Assembly (NCBI GenBank): GCA_900095095.1
Contig: FMBT01000293.1
Span: 124,001 to 188,000 of the forward strand
DNA length: 64,000 nucleotides
Source: Fragilariopsis cylindrus CCMP1102
Taxonomy: Eukaryota; Bacillariophyta; Bacillariophyceae; Bacillariales; Bacillariaceae
Direction of reading: 5' to 3'
Of the stretch, positions 5,014 to 41,518 are shown in pieces (positions within the stretch are counted from its first letter, which is position 1; the number at the start of each line of letters is the position of its first letter). The notes under the pieces are model-generated. The model made no database searches and was not told the origin of the DNA. It worked only from the letters and a program-made list of their open reading frames with translations. The translations under genes were made by a program, and so were the position numbers.

Positions 5014-5218
5014 CGCGACTACTACTTATGTGAAGATTAGAATAGTGATAGGATCTACCTTATTAATTAATTCTTACATTTTTAAAAGTACATATTAGTC
5101 TATTGATTTACTTTCGGTGCAATTCGACACAAAAAATAACCAGTCGTTGATTACTGTGCCGCTAGGATTTGGAGGCGCATGATTCGATTCGATTCATACT
5201 GAATGGGTCTCAATAAAT

Positions 5219-6214
5219 CTATCGCGTCATGTACAATTGTTGATTTGATTCTACTTCTTGCTGAATTGTAAAGCCGAATCTCTTGTACATATTGATCGCA
5301 TTGATATTCTCTTCTTCAACATACAACGCCATCGTTCCACTACCCGGCGATGTTTTCTGTACATATTTCAAGGCGGAATTCACGACGGAGGATCCCACAC
5401 CACGACGTCGATATTCGGGGGAGGTAATAAAGTTGATAATTGTTGGGACAGTATCGACATCTCGAATACTGCATTCATCTTCCACATCTTGTATGGTCAA
5501 GCCATCCATCGTCGTGATTGTTGTTGTTGTACCGTCGTCATCATCATCCTGTACCGGTTTTGATAACATAGCAATCTCACAAAATCCTATAATCTCTCCA
5601 GTAATAGTATTTTCTGCAGTGATCATTTTATGGTATAACCAATCAAAATTTTGAGGAGCACACATAAAGTTGTGGTTTTTCCATATATGAGGTTCATTGG
5701 ATAGTGATGCTGCTTTTTCTATACTGGTACGAAACTGATCGTTGGACCATAACATTCTCAATTGCTCCGCTTCTGTAAGAGGAGACTCGAGGGAGGAGGA
5801 GGAATGTTGGCCTTCCGTTACAATTTTCTTTCCAGTCTGGGTGGCGTCCATTCTCGATTGTAACAGAGAGGTGACACCAGATACAGTACTCTTAAACTTG
5901 AAGTTAAAGGGAGAAACTTTACGATTCTTCTTCTTGTTTTCTTTGGTCTTATCTTGTTCTTCTTCTTCTAATAATGCATGTGTCAACATAGTCGCTATTT
6001 CCTTAATGTCACTTTCCACAGTCGATCGTATTCTCAGATTGAGCTTTGCTAATTGTTGTTGATTCGTGTTGATTCCTATAGTATCTGTACCCACCCTTGT
6101 TCTCGTCATTATACCTGTGTCTCCCTCCCAAGACGGTGCGATCACCGCCATCGCGTAGCAGTACTTTATTATCATGGACGATAATAACAATAGTCGAATT
6201 TTTATCACAATCAT
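5219..6214 (-). CDS. GNAT-family N-acetyltransferase with N-terminal signal
   Basis: An intact 331-residue ORF starting at an ATG at 6214. Residues 1-30 are hydrophobic and could be a signal or plastid pre-sequence. The middle is low-complexity (Asp and Thr runs). The C-terminal third is a GNAT fold: RRRGVGSSVV is the acetyl-CoA-binding motif A (R/Q-x-x-G-x-G/A), followed by ALYVEEENINAINMYKRFGF, the usual motif B with Tyr-Lys-Arg-Phe-Gly-Phe. Substrate is unknown. It is tail-to-tail with transportin (205 bp). Diatoms have many secretory or plastid GNATs of this layout. Confidence 0.75.
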   Translation of the reverse strand: MIVIKIRLLLLSSMIIKYCYAMAVIAPSWEGDTGIMTRTRVGTDTIGINTNQQQLAKLNLRIRSTVESDIKEIATMLTHALLEEEEQDKTKENKKKNRKVSPFNFKFKSTVSGVTSLLQSRMDATQTGKKIVTEGQHSSSSLESPLTEAEQLRMLWSNDQFRTSIEKAASLSNEPHIWKNHNFMCAPQNFDWLYHKMITAENTITGEIIGFCEIAMLSKPVQDDDDDGTTTTITTMDGLTIQDVEDECSIRDVDTVPTIINFITSPEYRRRGVGSSVVNSALKYVQKTSPGSGTMALYVEEENINAINMYKRFGFTIQQEVESNQQLYMTR

Positions 6215-6870
6215 GATTTATTTGTAGCTGTTGTTGTTGCTGTTGTTGCTGTTGCTGCTGGTGTTATGAGTATGGAATTTTAAATGCTGATAAAGTGTCT
6301 AACCTTCTAATTCTGCTGTAGTCTTTGCCGATGAAGCGATGAAGAATAAAATAATGCGAAAAGAATAAATCGATAATGCATGCATGCATTCACATCGCAT
6401 TCATTCGCATGAGCGATGATGAGTCAATATATTATTAAATTTGATTGATGCATGGGTGTGGAAGAATGCTTGTGGCGTATGACGTGTATTATAAAATCAA
6501 CAGTCAACAATTTTATGAACTGGTTTTACAGACGTGCAATAACCGACAATGGGATTGGGTTAAAAAACACCAATCGTCCAATCGTGCATTAGTAGCACGA
6601 CTCAATTCTTGAATTCCGTTTACTTTTTTGTCATCTTGAATCTTTTTATGTCATACCTTTAACCTTCACATCAGATCAAGCTTTGTTCTTACAAACATCA
6701 AAAGCAGTCACAGCCTTGTAGCAATCACACGAGCAATAAGATAACTCCTACCACTCATCATTATATCAGTGACAAAACCATACCAACACCAACCCACCTG
6801 AGCGAACTTGCAAGATACCCTTGTGACACAAATATCGTATTGATCCTGCTTCGCTTTATGGTTATCGTTA
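6215..6870. promoter_or_regulatory. Divergent promoter region; start of a later duplication
   Basis: This 656-bp spacer lies between the GNAT gene (minus) and the membrane-protein gene (plus). It has a short TTG/CTG microsatellite near 6225-6262. From 6799 onward the sequence recurs exactly at 14029, marking the left edge of the duplicated target segment. No clear TATA or other motif was identified. Confidence 0.4.
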
Positions 6871-7813
6871 ATGATGATGATAATGTTGACGATGACGATA
6901 AATCAAAGAACACTTACTTTCTTCTTCCTCATCCTGCAGACAGTGAATTCCTTTTCTTCCACTCCCTATATTAGAGGGACTTACTCTGGCCTAGAAAAAT
7001 ACATAGTACCAGTAACGACATCCACAAATGGCAGATACAATACAAAATACCCATATACGACTTCGTCAGAAGTAATGAGTCCAAATAACCGAAATAGAAA
7101 TACGAGAAGGAAACAGCAAGCAATGTTCGAGAACTTTCGTTACGAATCATTGATCGTCGACCTCACACATCATACTACTATTATCATCCATCACACAATC
7201 CATCACACAATCAGTCACCTCATCCATTCGAAGATATTGGTGGTGTTTCCCAATGAGTTTGGCTCTGTACCCACCCTACTGTTCTATCTTCAAAGGAACA
7301 TGTGCGAACATGCCGGATTGGTGGAGGATGGTCAATATGGAGTATATTGCTGCCTCTGAGAATGCTAACTGGATTATTGGTCCATTTTTAGCCTCCAATA
7401 TTTCTTACATCATCTGTGGACTATATCTGATGAACCGATTCCGTTTTTTTCAAACATCTCCTGTGAATGGTGATATTGAATTCCGACCGACAAAATATTC
7501 CATGCTCGGAGTTTGGATTATTGCCGCCGGTCTGATCAGCACAATTTTTCACCATACTCAGGCTCTTGGTTCGCACTCACTAGCCGTCGATCTGTATTTT
7601 TTGGATCACGCGGTGGCAGGGTCCGCAACACTCTATTTCCTGGATACCTGTGGTGTACCATCCAGAATGGCCTTACTCATTGGTGCTGTAGCATTGGTCA
7701 CCCTCGTGATCACATCACCTGGTTATACTTTCCTTCATTCTTCCTGGCACTATCTTTCGGCAGTCACGGCAACAAAATGGGCTTTAGATGGGTATAATCG
7801 ATTATCCCGATAA
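6871..7813 (+). CDS. Small multi-pass membrane protein, CREST-like (frame-broken copy)
   Basis: The N-terminal part (6871-7359) opens with a signal-peptide-like core (TLTFFFLILQTVNSF). The C-terminal part (7253-7813, another frame) has about six membrane segments with polar residues placed as in the CREST hydrolase superfamily (alkaline ceramidase, PAQR, TMEM8): STIFHH, then a D within LYFLDH, then SSWHYLS. The match is by motif layout only, so the function is uncertain. The two parts are out of frame here, but in the truncated duplicate at 14101 they are fused in one frame. The copies differ only by three indels (1, 3 and 1 bases missing here), so the break is probably a sequence error. Confidence 0.5.
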
Positions 7814-37183: not shown

Positions 37184-39147
37184 ATGTCACTAATTTTTGG
37201 TCCTCATTCCCCGGTTACGCCGAATAAAAATGCTGTACTCATTAAACATGGTGAGCACTGCTGTATCGAAGAAAAGAAAAGGATGTTGTGAAATGAGTTA
37301 AAGAAAATGGAATGAGAATGTCATTATCAATTCGAGAAACTTTTTGTGACTCACTCATATTCACATTCATTTTCATGCTATGTAGTTCGAGCCTTCGTCT
37401 TTGGAGACGACAAACAAGAAAAGGAGTCTGGTGGTGGTGCTGACTGTCATAAGCAAAGCGCAGGACATTGGATTGTTGATTCTGATATTGCAAATCCTAT
37501 GTCGGTGTATGAACAATATCGTGCATCCCGAACTAGTTGGGGTATAGATGCAATGGGTAGCGTTGTCGTCGAAGTTGAGCTATCGAATGGTATGATTGGT
37601 GTTGGAATTTCTATTGGCGGTGATGCTGCATGTTATATCATTGAGAAACATTTGGCACGTTTCGTTGAAGGACAAGATCCTAGCAATGTGGAGTTAATAT
37701 GGGATCAATGCTGGCGATCAACAATCAACTATGGGCGTAAGGGTATTGCCATACAGGTGAGTGAGTCTATTTATTTCTTTAATGGGAAGGAAAGAAAGGA
37801 CAGAAGGGTAATAAAACCTCATATAACATCATATTTTGGTATTCGTTTTTATCTTTGAAATCCCCTTCTCTCACTCTATAGAACCTGCAAATCTTCCTCA
37901 AATTTTGACAGGCGTTGAGTGCTCTAGATTTGGCTATCTGGGACGCGCTAGGTCATTTACGAGGACTTCCCATCTATGCATTACTGGGCGGCAAAACGAA
38001 GGAAAGAATGCCTGTCTACGCAACAACAGCAAGGTAAATAGAACGGAATAGACTAGCTAGGACTATATATGTGACATCGGGGGGAGAAATTTGAAATACT
38101 TTTATGCACTATAAAACATCGATACTAGCTCACTTACACTGTTCACAGGCCCGACTTTGCCAAGTCGATGGGTTTTCATGGTGCTAAATTTCCTCTACCG
38201 TTTGGTCCAGCTCAAGGACAAGAAGGGATGAGAAAAATATCGAAATGGTAAAAAAGTGGAGAGAGGCTGTAGGAGAAGATTATCCGTTAATGATTGACTG
38301 CTATATGAGTTTGACTGTTCCGTATGCGATTGAATTAGCAAGACGATGCGAACCATACGATGTAAAATGGATCGAGGAAACACTCCCTCCTGACGAATAC
38401 GAAGGATATGCAAGAATCAAAGAAAAAGTCTGTTCAACTCTCTTGACGACTGGAGAACACGAGTACACTCGATGGGGCTTTCGTATGCTATTAGAAAAGA
38501 AGTGTTGCGATGTTCTTCAACCCGATATAACCTGTAAGCACCACTTCTTTACTCCGTGTATTCTATTTGCTGCATTTTAGATATTGATCAGTTTCTAACT
38601 CAACCACTCATTCACTCATTTACTCACTCCCCCACTCTATCCACTCTATCCACTCTACTGCTCAACTGATATAAGGGTGTGGAGGGATGACCGAAGCACG
38701 ACGGATTGTAGCACTTGCAAGCGCATATGATATTCCAATTATTCCGCATGGATCCTCTGTCTACTCATATCATTTACAAATTTGTTTTCCGTCATGTCCT
38801 ATTGCCGAGTTTCTGGTCATGGTACGTCGTGTGAATTAAATAACCATGGCGATTTTTATGATTTGTGCTTTCATAGTCAACGATACAATGTCACTCACTC
38901 ATTCACTCTGTCTACCTACCTCTCCCTCTACACATAAACACACACACACGCACATACACACACTAAAAAAATTGAACCTCCCTCTCAGTCTCCAAAGGCA
39001 GATAAGATTGTCAGTTATTTTGGCAACTTGTTTAAGGACGAACCTCTCCCAAAGGATGGATATGTAGAACTGACCGATAAACCTGGATTTGGCGTTGAGT
39101 TGAACAGAGAGGAGCTCAATTTGAGACGTCCCTATCCTAGAGATTAA
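37184..39147 (+). CDS. rhmD: L-rhamnonate dehydratase (enolase superfamily)
   Basis: Dehydrates L-rhamnonate to 2-keto-3-deoxy-L-rhamnonate. Six exons: 37184-37250, 37386-37756, 37912-38033, 38149-38533, 38676-38821, 38989-39147, all GT-AG. The N-terminus MSLIFGPHS reads into [12 protein letters not shown], then the RhmD-specific GGGADCHKQ and HWIVD. Metal ligands and bases of the barrel are present: Asp in MIDCYMS, Glu in KWIEETLPP, Glu-His in TTGEHEY, Asp in LQPDITWCGG, His in IPHGSSVYS. The end [12 protein letters not shown]...RRPY is diagnostic. One -1 break near 38240 (one A missing from an A run). It lies tail-to-tail, 164 bp away, with a gene for the next two enzymes of the same pathway. 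No organelle signal is obvious. Confidence 0.9.
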
Positions 39148-39311
39148 TTTTCACAGATATTTATCTTAGACCTATAATTTATATAATGCATTCGTAGTTA
39201 AGCTAATCAATGATCTATGTTGGTATCAATTATACTGCATAGAAGAGTTCTCTTTGTTTTTCCTCCTCTCATAATCTCTATACTTCCACCTTACTAGTAC
39301 TCAACATTTAC

Positions 39312-40012
39312 CTAGTAGACCGACCTACCCCCCGTAGCATCGAAGCAAAATCCAGTTGTAAAACTAGTTTCTGGGTCACACATGAATACTACCATAGCAG
39401 CTATTGCCGATCATTCAACATTATATTCAAGTATAGTAGCACGGGAGAAAATAAAATGGGGATAAGACTACACATACACACACCACACACACATACACAC
39501 ACATAATATACTGCCTTCAACAGAGATAGACAAACGTACCGATCTCGTCAATAGTTCCACAACGTTTCATTGGTATCTTATCTGTCATGTACTTAACCTG
39601 TGCAGCAGGCATATCATCAACCATTTGTGTTCGCACTACTGCAGGGCACAGAGCGTTGCACGTTATGCCCGTCTCAGCATATTCTTTGCCAATCGATTTA
39701 GTCAGTCCAATGACGGCAGCCTTGCTGGCTGAATATGCCAGCATTCCTGCATTGCCTTCCTTTCCCGCAATAGAGGAGATTTTACCGATCCTCCCATAAT
39801 CATTTTCTCTCATGTAAGGAAGGGCTGCCTTGCATCCATTGAAAATACCATGAACATTGACACGAAAAACAGCCTCAAAGTTATCAGGATCAACATCTTC
39901 TGTCTTAACCCCAGTTGAGCCGACAATTCCTGCAGCTTGCACTGGAACAGAATGGATTAGAAATGAAATAGAGAAGGAACAAAGATCAGTATCGACAGTA
40001 CAAGCGATTTTG

Positions 40013-40050
<38 letters not shown>

Positions 40051-41518
40051 CGACAACGGCAACTCCACCGCCAACACATACCAAGGATATCTATTTTGTC
40101 TCCGTTGCTTGTTGCGATTTTCGTCCAAGTTTCGCTTACTGCCTTGTAATCCCCCACATCACAGACTTCTCCAGAATAACGACAATTCGGAACTGATTCG
40201 TTCAACTTTTTACAAGCAGCTTCAATTGATGTTATATCCAAGTCGACGATTGCAACCCTTTTGGCACCTTCCATGCCTAATCGTGCCGCGATTCCATACC
40301 CTATACCTCTTGCACCACCTGTGACAATACATGTTGTTACTTTTGTACTTAACCGACCTATCGCAAAGACTGGTTGTTGACACGATAGAGCAATATTGTC
40401 GCAAGTATGTTCTAATCCCGACTTTGCTAGTGGACCAACTATTGGCGTAGTCAGAGTGCCGATACCATCAATTTCACACTCTACCATATCACCGGGCATT
40501 AGCCATCGTGGCGGATTCCGAAAACATCCTACTCCAGGTGGCGTTCCAGTGGCAATCACATCACCAGGACGGAGGGTCATAAAGCGAGAAACAAAGGCAA
40601 CAATTTCATCAACACCAAAAACTAACTGCTCTGTATTGGATTCTTGTAAGGTTTCCCCATTCACGCGACATCGAATACCCGTCTTGTGTGCGTCTTCTAT
40701 GCTAAAGTCATCTGTGGTAACAATGACAGGACCAATTGGTGCATAACCATCCATAGACTTGCCCAATAGCCACTGCCCGCCGTTCTTCTCTAGCTGCCAG
40801 TCTCTAAAAAAACAAAAGCAAAAAACAGTTTTACGAGTGAGGGAAAAACAATCAGAAGGAGCGAAACATGTAATTGGAATCAAAACAGTTAGATGTATGA
40901 ATCAAGGAAGTCGCTATTCAATTCATAGTTGCAGTAACGAAATAACATCATCAGGAAAGATTTTTTCTATCGAATATAGAGTAGAGTAGAGTAGAGTACA
41001 TACCTGGCCGATACATCGTGTATAACAGTAAATCCACCAACGTACTTGTGGACGTCTTCTTTTGATGTATATCTAGGTACCGATGCTCCAATTACAACTC
41101 CTAATTCCACTTCATAGTCCAGCTTTTCTGTATGCTCATCCTTAGCCACAGCATCTCCCGGACCAACGATACAATCCGATGCAAATTTAGAAAATACTAA
41201 AGGTTCAGTTGGAATTTCAACATCTTGTTCGGTACAATGATCCTTGTAATTCATACCAATGCATAAAAATTTCCCAACGAGTGATCCATCTATTGGTACT
41301 AAAAGATGACAATCATCTGCTGAAATATAGTTGGAAGAAGTACTCAACGAAGTTTGTGCTATAAGTTCATCTGCTTGGATCAGTCCTTCAACAATAAAAA
41401 ATTCACGGACGTTGGAAGCAATAGATGTCAAATCGCAATATCCACCGCCTTTTTCAGAAGGAAGTTGAGCGACCAACTTAGTCATTCCGTTATGTTGGAC
41501 ACTTGCTAGACGAACCAT
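39312..41518 (-). CDS. Bifunctional FAH-family hydrolase / short-chain dehydrogenase (oxidative rhamnose pathway)
   Basis: Four exons, 41518-41004, 40803-40082, 39941-39540 and 39400-39312, give an intact 575-residue protein without any frame break. Residues 1-~295 are a fumarylacetoacetase-like hydrolase: LCIGMNYKDHC, DYEVELGVVIG (metal Glu pair), KSMDGYAPIGP, TGTPPGVG. Residues ~310-575 are an SDR: IVTGGARGIGYG (NAD site), ISSIAG (Ser), YSASKAAV (Tyr/Lys) and the end TTGFCFDATGG. In bacteria the SDR (LRA5) oxidises 2-keto-3-deoxy-L-rhamnonate and the FAH enzyme (LRA6) splits the diketo product to pyruvate and L-lactate; here both are one chain. Assignment to rhamnose rather than fucose rests on the neighbouring RhmD. 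A GATGAC repeat fills intron 2. Confidence 0.85.

Follow-up and report, generated by a model that had tools for sequence, protein, structure and literature searches.

An adjoining pair of genes in the diatom Fragilariopsis cylindrus CCMP1102 is likely to encode the lower steps of L-rhamnose breakdown by a non-phosphorylating pathway of bacterial type, which would convert L-rhamnonate to pyruvate and L-lactate; the genes were probably acquired from bacteria, with the last two enzymes fused into one protein. The pair occupies positions 37184 to 41518 of the analysed stretch of 64,000 nucleotides (contig FMBT01000293.1, positions 124,001 to 188,000), which is called the window below. Gene 1 (37184..39147, plus strand) is assigned to the L-rhamnonate dehydratases (RhmD/LRA3 type), and gene 2 (39312..41518, minus strand) encodes a protein of 575 amino acids that joins a fumarylacetoacetate hydrolase (FAH) domain to a short-chain dehydrogenase/reductase (SDR) domain. 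The two genes are convergent, and 164 bp separate their stop codons (39148..39311). This tail-to-tail arrangement had already been noted in the original prediction, which had been made from the DNA sequence without database searches.

The L-rhamnonate dehydratase candidate

The assignment of gene 1 as a putative L-rhamnonate dehydratase is strongly supported, both by the family cut-off and by the phylogeny. The protein, taken from the intact haplotig copy described below, scored 528.4 bits with the NCBIfam model NF011968 for L-rhamnonate dehydratase (cut-off 393), compared with 157.7 bits for the runner-up model. The top match in the PDB reached 457 bits, and five of the seven best-matching solved structures are named rhamnonate dehydratase. 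The residues D237, E263, E290, D313, H340, and E360 were invariant in all six aligned rows; we take these to be the metal ligands and the His-Asp pair of the enolase superfamily, with the corresponding catalytic roles.

Bacterial and archaeal genomes were scanned with an RhmD alignment, which yielded at least 595 stretches and 513 relatives. The best 80 of these 513 were kept, and all locus counts given below refer to them; closer RhmD relatives may exist. The top eight of the 80 came from Acidobacteriota and Chloroflexota and had identities of 61-66%, and the identities of all others were at most 56%. A quick tree was calculated from 60 of the 85 collected rows, after identical rows had been removed, and a careful tree from 27 rows, including that of the window. 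In the careful tree, the diatom RhmD grouped with the proteins from Acidobacteriota and Chloroflexota (support 100/100) and stood beside their common branch. Profile and phylogeny thus agreed with the clear RhmD-type dehydratase of the original prediction, which had, however, overlooked a one-base loss near position 38235.

The gene model comprises six exons (37184-37250, 37386-37756, 37912-38033, 38149-38533, 38676-38821, and 38989-39147) separated by GT..AG introns. It was built on the haplotig, contig C717, and then transferred to the window coordinates. Sixteen splicing combinations had an open frame, and one that fitted the bacterial relatives was chosen; on the intact haplotig copy, it encodes 416 amino acids. 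The alignment of the two haplotypes revealed a deletion of one base in the window copy (38230..38240, plus strand, near 38235), which disrupts the reading frame in exon 4 and may reflect either an error of the assembly or a base lost recently from one haplotype. C717 represents the second haplotype and was 98.3% identical to the window over 6,963 aligned columns. Within the RhmD coding sequence, 18 of the differences between the haplotypes were synonymous and 2 were non-synonymous, equivalent to a dN/dS of about 0.03 by simple counting, which indicates that gene 1 has been under strong purifying selection.

The fusion gene and its two domains

Gene 2 was modelled with four exons (41518-41004, 40803-40082, 39941-39540, and 39400-39312, minus strand) and GT..AG introns. 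Because C717 ends inside this gene and contains single-base insertions or deletions there, gene 2 was read from the window sequence only. Splicing combinations that gave at least 480 residues numbered 264, and the choice among them was made by SDR homology. The FAH domain (fumarylacetoacetate hydrolase, C-terminal) covers residues 84-293 (40440..41269) and is split by intron 1 (41003-40804), and the SDR domain covers residues of about 327-575 (39315..40340) and is split by introns 2 and 3. Exon 2 (40082..40803) is free of stop codons from the FAH domain via a linker of about 33 amino acids into the SDR domain. As the junction falls within this single exon, the fusion does not depend on the joining of exons, and the original prediction of one gene for both an SDR and a FAH-type hydrolase held. 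Both domains were recognized by Pfam models, FAA_hydrolase (PF01557) with 222 bits and PF13561 with 172 bits.

Two minor features of this region were noted. Intron 2 contains a short repeat of a GACGAT-like unit (40015-40057). The last 1.9 kb of the haplotig (positions 5072-6958 of the stretch L009 from C717) showed no substitutions relative to the window, together with six one-base insertions or deletions, which suggests that the end of the contig was assembled incorrectly.

For the SDR domain, a function as an L-KDR (2-keto-3-deoxy-L-rhamnonate) 4-dehydrogenase of the LRA5 type is supported by relatives in Acidobacteriota that adjoin RhmD and by two putative substrate residues. The Ser-Tyr-Lys residues S143, Y156, and K160 as well as the TGxxxGxG glycine motif were invariant in eight of eight rows. 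The solved structure nearest to the diatom SDR was 6D9Y. According to excerpts of PMC11199699 (all papers cited here are drawn on in excerpt), 6D9Y is a putative L-KDR dehydrogenase and the nearest solved structure to the L-KDR dehydrogenases, and Lys209 and Arg247 are its likely substrate ligands. Both residues are kept in the diatom SDR when the chain numbering is taken as that of the paper plus 8, and they were present in all eight rows. The retention of these residues, together with the top match to 6D9Y, favours a rhamnonate-derived substrate for the SDR. Equivalents of both residues were also found in the SDRs of two plasmid stretches without an RhmD match (L030 and L031).

The careful SDR tree (30 rows) placed the diatom SDR with six SDRs from Acidobacteriota (support 99/98) and outside the other main clade, which contains the RhmD-linked SDRs of Pseudomonadota. 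The quick SDR tree included 50 of the 97 collected rows after removal of identical rows, and characterised LRA5 was absent from both trees. For four of the six Acidobacteriota tree relatives, the RhmD gene lies directly beside the SDR gene. An SDR was present in all four Acidobacteriota RhmD loci, with 52-55% identity to the diatom domain; at the remaining 62 loci that contained an SDR, the identity was 38-47%. Because the RhmD and SDR relatives in Acidobacteriota mostly adjoin one another, the SDR can be tied to rhamnonate metabolism. A scan of viral contigs with the SDR alignment found 22 loci with identities of 23-37%.

The FAH domain fits the predicted hydrolase reaction, and its substrate could be derived from the rhamnose route or from the fucose route. 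The residues H94, E97, E136, E138, D168, and K187, presumably the His-Glu pair and the metal ligands, were kept in eight of eight rows. In comparison with FAHs of Chloroflexota, identities of up to 52% over about 210 residues were found. Among the first eight genomes searched, the most similar FAH had 50% identity (G001, the genome that also contains the RhmD locus L032) and is encoded near an enolase-family protein, which we take to be an L-fuconate dehydratase. LRA5 acts on L-KDR and yields a diketo compound that is also formed from L-KDF (2-keto-3-deoxy-L-fuconate) in the fucose pathway, and the hydrolase LRA6 is phylogenetically close to FucG (PMC11199699). High instability has been described for this diketo compound (PMC13406643).

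Gene neighbourhoods in bacteria and search for further fusions

The surroundings of the 80 best RhmD relatives were analysed with thresholds of at least 150 bits for SDR and at least 120 bits for FAH; several loci were cut by contig ends. Both FAH and SDR were found at 46 loci, SDR alone at 20, FAH alone at three, and neither at 11, so that 66 of the 80 loci contained an SDR. At all 46 loci with both genes, FAH preceded SDR at a distance of less than 400 bases. Plasmid records with a match numbered at least 5000, of which the 30 best were listed and at most nine of these stretches inspected. FAH preceded SDR at six of eight plasmid loci, and RhmD was present in six of the eight stretches. One of these plasmid loci, L030, pairs SDR and FAH with a dehydratase of the IlvD/Edd type instead of RhmD.

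In three Acidobacteriota loci that were checked (L032, L035, and L038), ABC sugar-type transport genes lie upstream. A protein with a metallo-beta-lactamase fold adjoins RhmD and SDR in two Acidobacteriota genomes (L032, 6889-7743, and L172; 73% mutual identity) and is possibly the lactonase of that pathway. Within the stretches of four Chloroflexota RhmD loci (L033, L036, L037, and L039), neither an SDR nor a FAH reached the threshold; at L033, the one locus of these that was checked, amidohydrolases are encoded on either side of RhmD.

No uninterrupted FAH-SDR fusion was present in the 80 RhmD loci or among the matches listed for 1,194 bacterial genomes (396 Acidobacteriota, 400 Chloroflexota, and 398 Pseudomonadota). 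In the latter search, three candidates were scored per genome at E cut-offs of 1e-40 for Acidobacteriota (among the matches listed), 1e-62 for Chloroflexota, and 1e-60 for Pseudomonadota, and a weaker fusion could be missed. In two Pseudomonadota genomes (L215 and L216), FAH and SDR lie in the same frame with one stop codon between them, and no RhmD match was found in the 13 kb read. This arrangement indicates one simple route by which the fusion could have originated. Two apparent bacterial fusions were rejected: at L074, Ns between the domains shift the frame, and in the Arthrobacter plasmid match H29, stop codons separate the domains. A search of phages with the DNA of gene 2 gave no match.

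Candidates for an upper pathway in the diatom genome

The original prediction had proposed a search of the same genome for the enzymes upstream of L-rhamnonate. L-rhamnose 1-dehydrogenase (LRA1) was not found over the cut-off when 17 of 94 candidates were scored exon-wise; the best one reached 124.5 bits of the required 400. The best match to bacterial LRA1, on contig C420, was rejected as an orthologue, as it was judged by eye to be a FabG-type reductase; an LRA1 could be missed. For the lactonase, two weak candidates were retained, amidohydrolases on contigs C265 and C89 that resemble those in bacterial clusters, with 25-46% identity in parts. The open frame of the C89 amidohydrolase lies about 0.8 kb from a FAHD1-like open frame (C89, 105284-108263, stretches L163 and L164; the profile matches are about 1.7 kb apart). 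These two genes were rejected as a second pathway, because the FAH appeared by eye to be acylpyruvase-like (FAHD1-like) and had a very long branch. A source of L-rhamnonate in this diatom is presumed.

Two regions of contig C90 (411960-413138 and 488376-489627) matched the alpha-L-rhamnosidase six-hairpin domain (PF17389), the best pieces with 111 and 160 bits. A genome search for the gluconolactonase family, in which three loci were read, yielded a fusion of triosephosphate isomerase with SMP-30/gluconolactonase and other open frames. The fusion is a frame of 726 amino acids (L018, region C372:37292-38113) with 264 bits for the isomerase and 184 bits for the SMP-30/gluconolactonase part, and it has a haplotype-like copy (L019, C629). 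No report of such a fusion in diatoms was found in the literature search.

Proposed mechanism and origin

By family membership, RhmD would convert L-rhamnonate to L-KDR, and the fused protein would carry out the last two steps on one chain. The high instability of the diketo compound offers a reason for the fusion, as less of the intermediate might be lost when both steps occur on one chain. The donor of RhmD and the SDR was probably a bacterium related to Acidobacteriota or Chloroflexota, the two genes being neighbours in Acidobacteriota. The FAH would stem from the FAH group at large, some members of which act on this diketo compound in L-fucose pathways, and would have been fused upstream of the SDR; the resulting order, FAH then SDR, is also the one that prevailed among the bacterial loci inspected. 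The pair looks like a transfer of linked bacterial genes that were kept together in a eukaryotic nucleus while the operon orientation was lost.

Rhamnose occurs widely in the polysaccharides of algae, and bacteria are generally held responsible for its turnover. With RhmD and a fused dehydrogenase-hydrolase, a diatom could oxidise rhamnose itself. We infer a joint function of the two genes, their co-expression, and a role in rhamnose recycling. A more far-reaching proposal, which we advance only tentatively, is that the FAH-SDR protein arose in eukaryotes after the transfer as a genuinely bifunctional enzyme, in which the unstable diketo acid is handed over from the SDR site to the FAH site. 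Since the L-rhamnose and L-fucose routes share this diketo acid, a single fused enzyme could act in the salvage of both deoxy sugars in diatoms. The fusion also provides a ready test of channelling between two consecutive steps around an unstable intermediate.

Weighing of the evidence

Several results weigh against the proposed lower pathway. The frame of gene 1 is intact on the haplotig, and the window copy is out of frame from exon 4; the diatom branches in the trees are long. The top NCBIfam model for the SDR was FabG, with 209.9 bits and a cut-off of 296, and among the 25 families shown of 226, no SDR model was over its cut-off and no L-KDR dehydrogenase model was present. No RhmD was seen near the closest SDR relative (G297, 60% identity) or a further one (G281) within surrounding stretches of 12.5 and 8.6 kb. 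The LRA5 assignment of the original prediction is favoured by the RhmD-adjacent relatives and the retained Lys209 and Arg247. For the FAH domain, the best FAH-type NCBIfam model was indeed the LRA6 hydrolase; however, it gave 206.8 bits and its cut-off of 500 was missed. With 497.7 bits, a FAH encoded within an RhmD cluster of Caulobacter likewise falls just short of this cut-off. The nearest solved structures were a generic FAH protein (8sky, 169.5 bits) and LRA6 (8gsr, 165.6 bits). In the quick FAH tree (50 of 90 collected rows, the C89 FAH as outgroup, characterised LRA6 absent), the diatom domain fell outside the clade of RhmD-linked proteobacterial FAHs (Shimodaira-Hasegawa-like approximate likelihood ratio test 99), which also includes some FAHs from Acidobacteriota. 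With respect to the LRA6 of the original prediction, the domain fits the reaction and not the score or the tree position. In addition, two plasmid loci (L025 and L030) have the reverse order with SDR before FAH, in two (L030 and L031) FAH and SDR are present and the stretch gave no match to RhmD, and no FAH match was found alongside the most similar RhmD and SDR genes of Acidobacteriota, the stretch of L034 ending just past the SDR. The result for LRA1 described above points in the same direction.

RhmD enzymes are known to accept L-lyxonate and L-mannonate, and the pair might act on such a related sugar acid, or the fused protein might act mainly in L-fucose breakdown via the common diketo intermediate. 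We regard this as unlikely. The idea draws on the identity of the intermediate in the fucose and rhamnose pathways (PMC11199699), on the 50% identical FAH of G001 near a presumed L-fuconate dehydratase, and on the two plasmid loci that carry the FAH-SDR pair without RhmD. In contrast, when the genome was searched with PF13378, only the RhmD gene and its haplotig were strong matches; four of the seven contigs with weaker matches were read by eye, and three were ordinary-enolase-like and one was OSBS-like (C197, C499, and C535 were unread). The clustering of the SDR with RhmD-linked SDRs and the retention of both residues proposed for L-KDR dehydrogenases likewise argue for rhamnonate. That two genes with unrelated roles are neighbours by chance is still less probable. 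They are convergent rather than co-oriented, and three of the four flanking genes scanned have unrelated domains, as would fit a chance neighbourhood; however, the bacterial relatives adjoin, as seen from the frequencies of SDR and of FAH plus SDR at the RhmD loci and from the direct adjacency to RhmD of four of the six closest SDR tree relatives, all in Acidobacteriota. That the sequence stems from contaminating bacteria or represents a pair of decaying pseudogenes is very improbable, even though the proteins are bacterial in type and the RhmD frame of the window is broken. Both genes have GT..AG introns, the second haplotype carries the same genes, and the ratio of synonymous to non-synonymous differences indicates constraint. 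The window belongs to a contig of 769 kb; the genome comprises 67.9 Mb in 818 contigs, and the silicon-transporter family has 27 matches in it (counted per exon, haplotype copies included), the best with 757 bits. The cut-off of this family was passed by none of 14 control genomes, and the matches therefore identify the genome as that of a diatom. Together with the introns, they bear out the diatom-like nuclear genome that had been recognized from the sequence.

Comparison with known systems

The chemistry of the proposed lower pathway is known from bacteria, and, as far as our searches show, the occurrence in a diatom, the fusion of FAH with SDR, and the preserved linkage to RhmD are new; no report of an L-rhamnonate pathway or a FAH-SDR fusion in diatoms was found in the one open library searched. 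The diatom pair resembles the bacterial LRA1-LRA2-LRA3-LRA5-LRA6 pathway of Sphingomonas (PMC5674754, PMC11199699) in the close proximity of genes for an RhmD-type dehydratase, an SDR, and a FAH, and it has the FAH-before-SDR order in common with all 46 genomic loci containing both genes and with six of the eight plasmid loci. In contrast to the bacterial operon, the diatom genes are nuclear, intron-bearing, and convergent, FAH and SDR are fused, the FAH stays below the LRA6 cut-off, and no LRA1 exceeded its cut-off among the candidates scored. The RhmD-SDR clusters of Acidobacteriota (L032, L034, L035, and L038) contain the closest SDRs in named records (52-55%) and are among those with the closest RhmDs (61-66%), and their genes adjoin; however, their SDR is unfused and has no FAH match beside it (L034 is cut short).

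The L-fucose pathway (FucD, L-KDF dehydrogenase, and FucG; PMC11199699, PMC13406643) shares the diketo intermediate, the products, and a hydrolase of the FAH family, whereas the diatom dehydratase belongs to RhmD and the diatom SDR has retained the residues that were suggested for L-KDR dehydrogenases. The fungal LRA pathway (RHA1/LRA1 to the aldolase LRA4; PMC5674754) is also eukaryotic, clustered in some fungi, and includes an L-rhamnonate dehydratase. Its last enzyme in S. stipitis is an aldolase yielding L-lactaldehyde (PMC5674754), whereas the SDR and FAH predicted for the diatom would yield L-lactate. RhaEW, an aldolase fused to lactaldehyde dehydrogenase (PMC3870299), likewise joins two consecutive last steps of rhamnose breakdown; unlike the diatom fusion, it is bacterial, belongs to the phosphorylating pathway, and consists of unrelated enzymes.

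Further features of the window

The four flanking open frames that were scanned contained a dihydrouridine synthase domain, a reverse-transcriptase-like/RNase H-type domain, and a photolyase domain, and the fourth had no match. The base composition of the window was uneven, with a strong AT skew between 10001 and 14000 (-0.48 and -0.37) and a GC skew of about +0.2 between 22001 and 26000.

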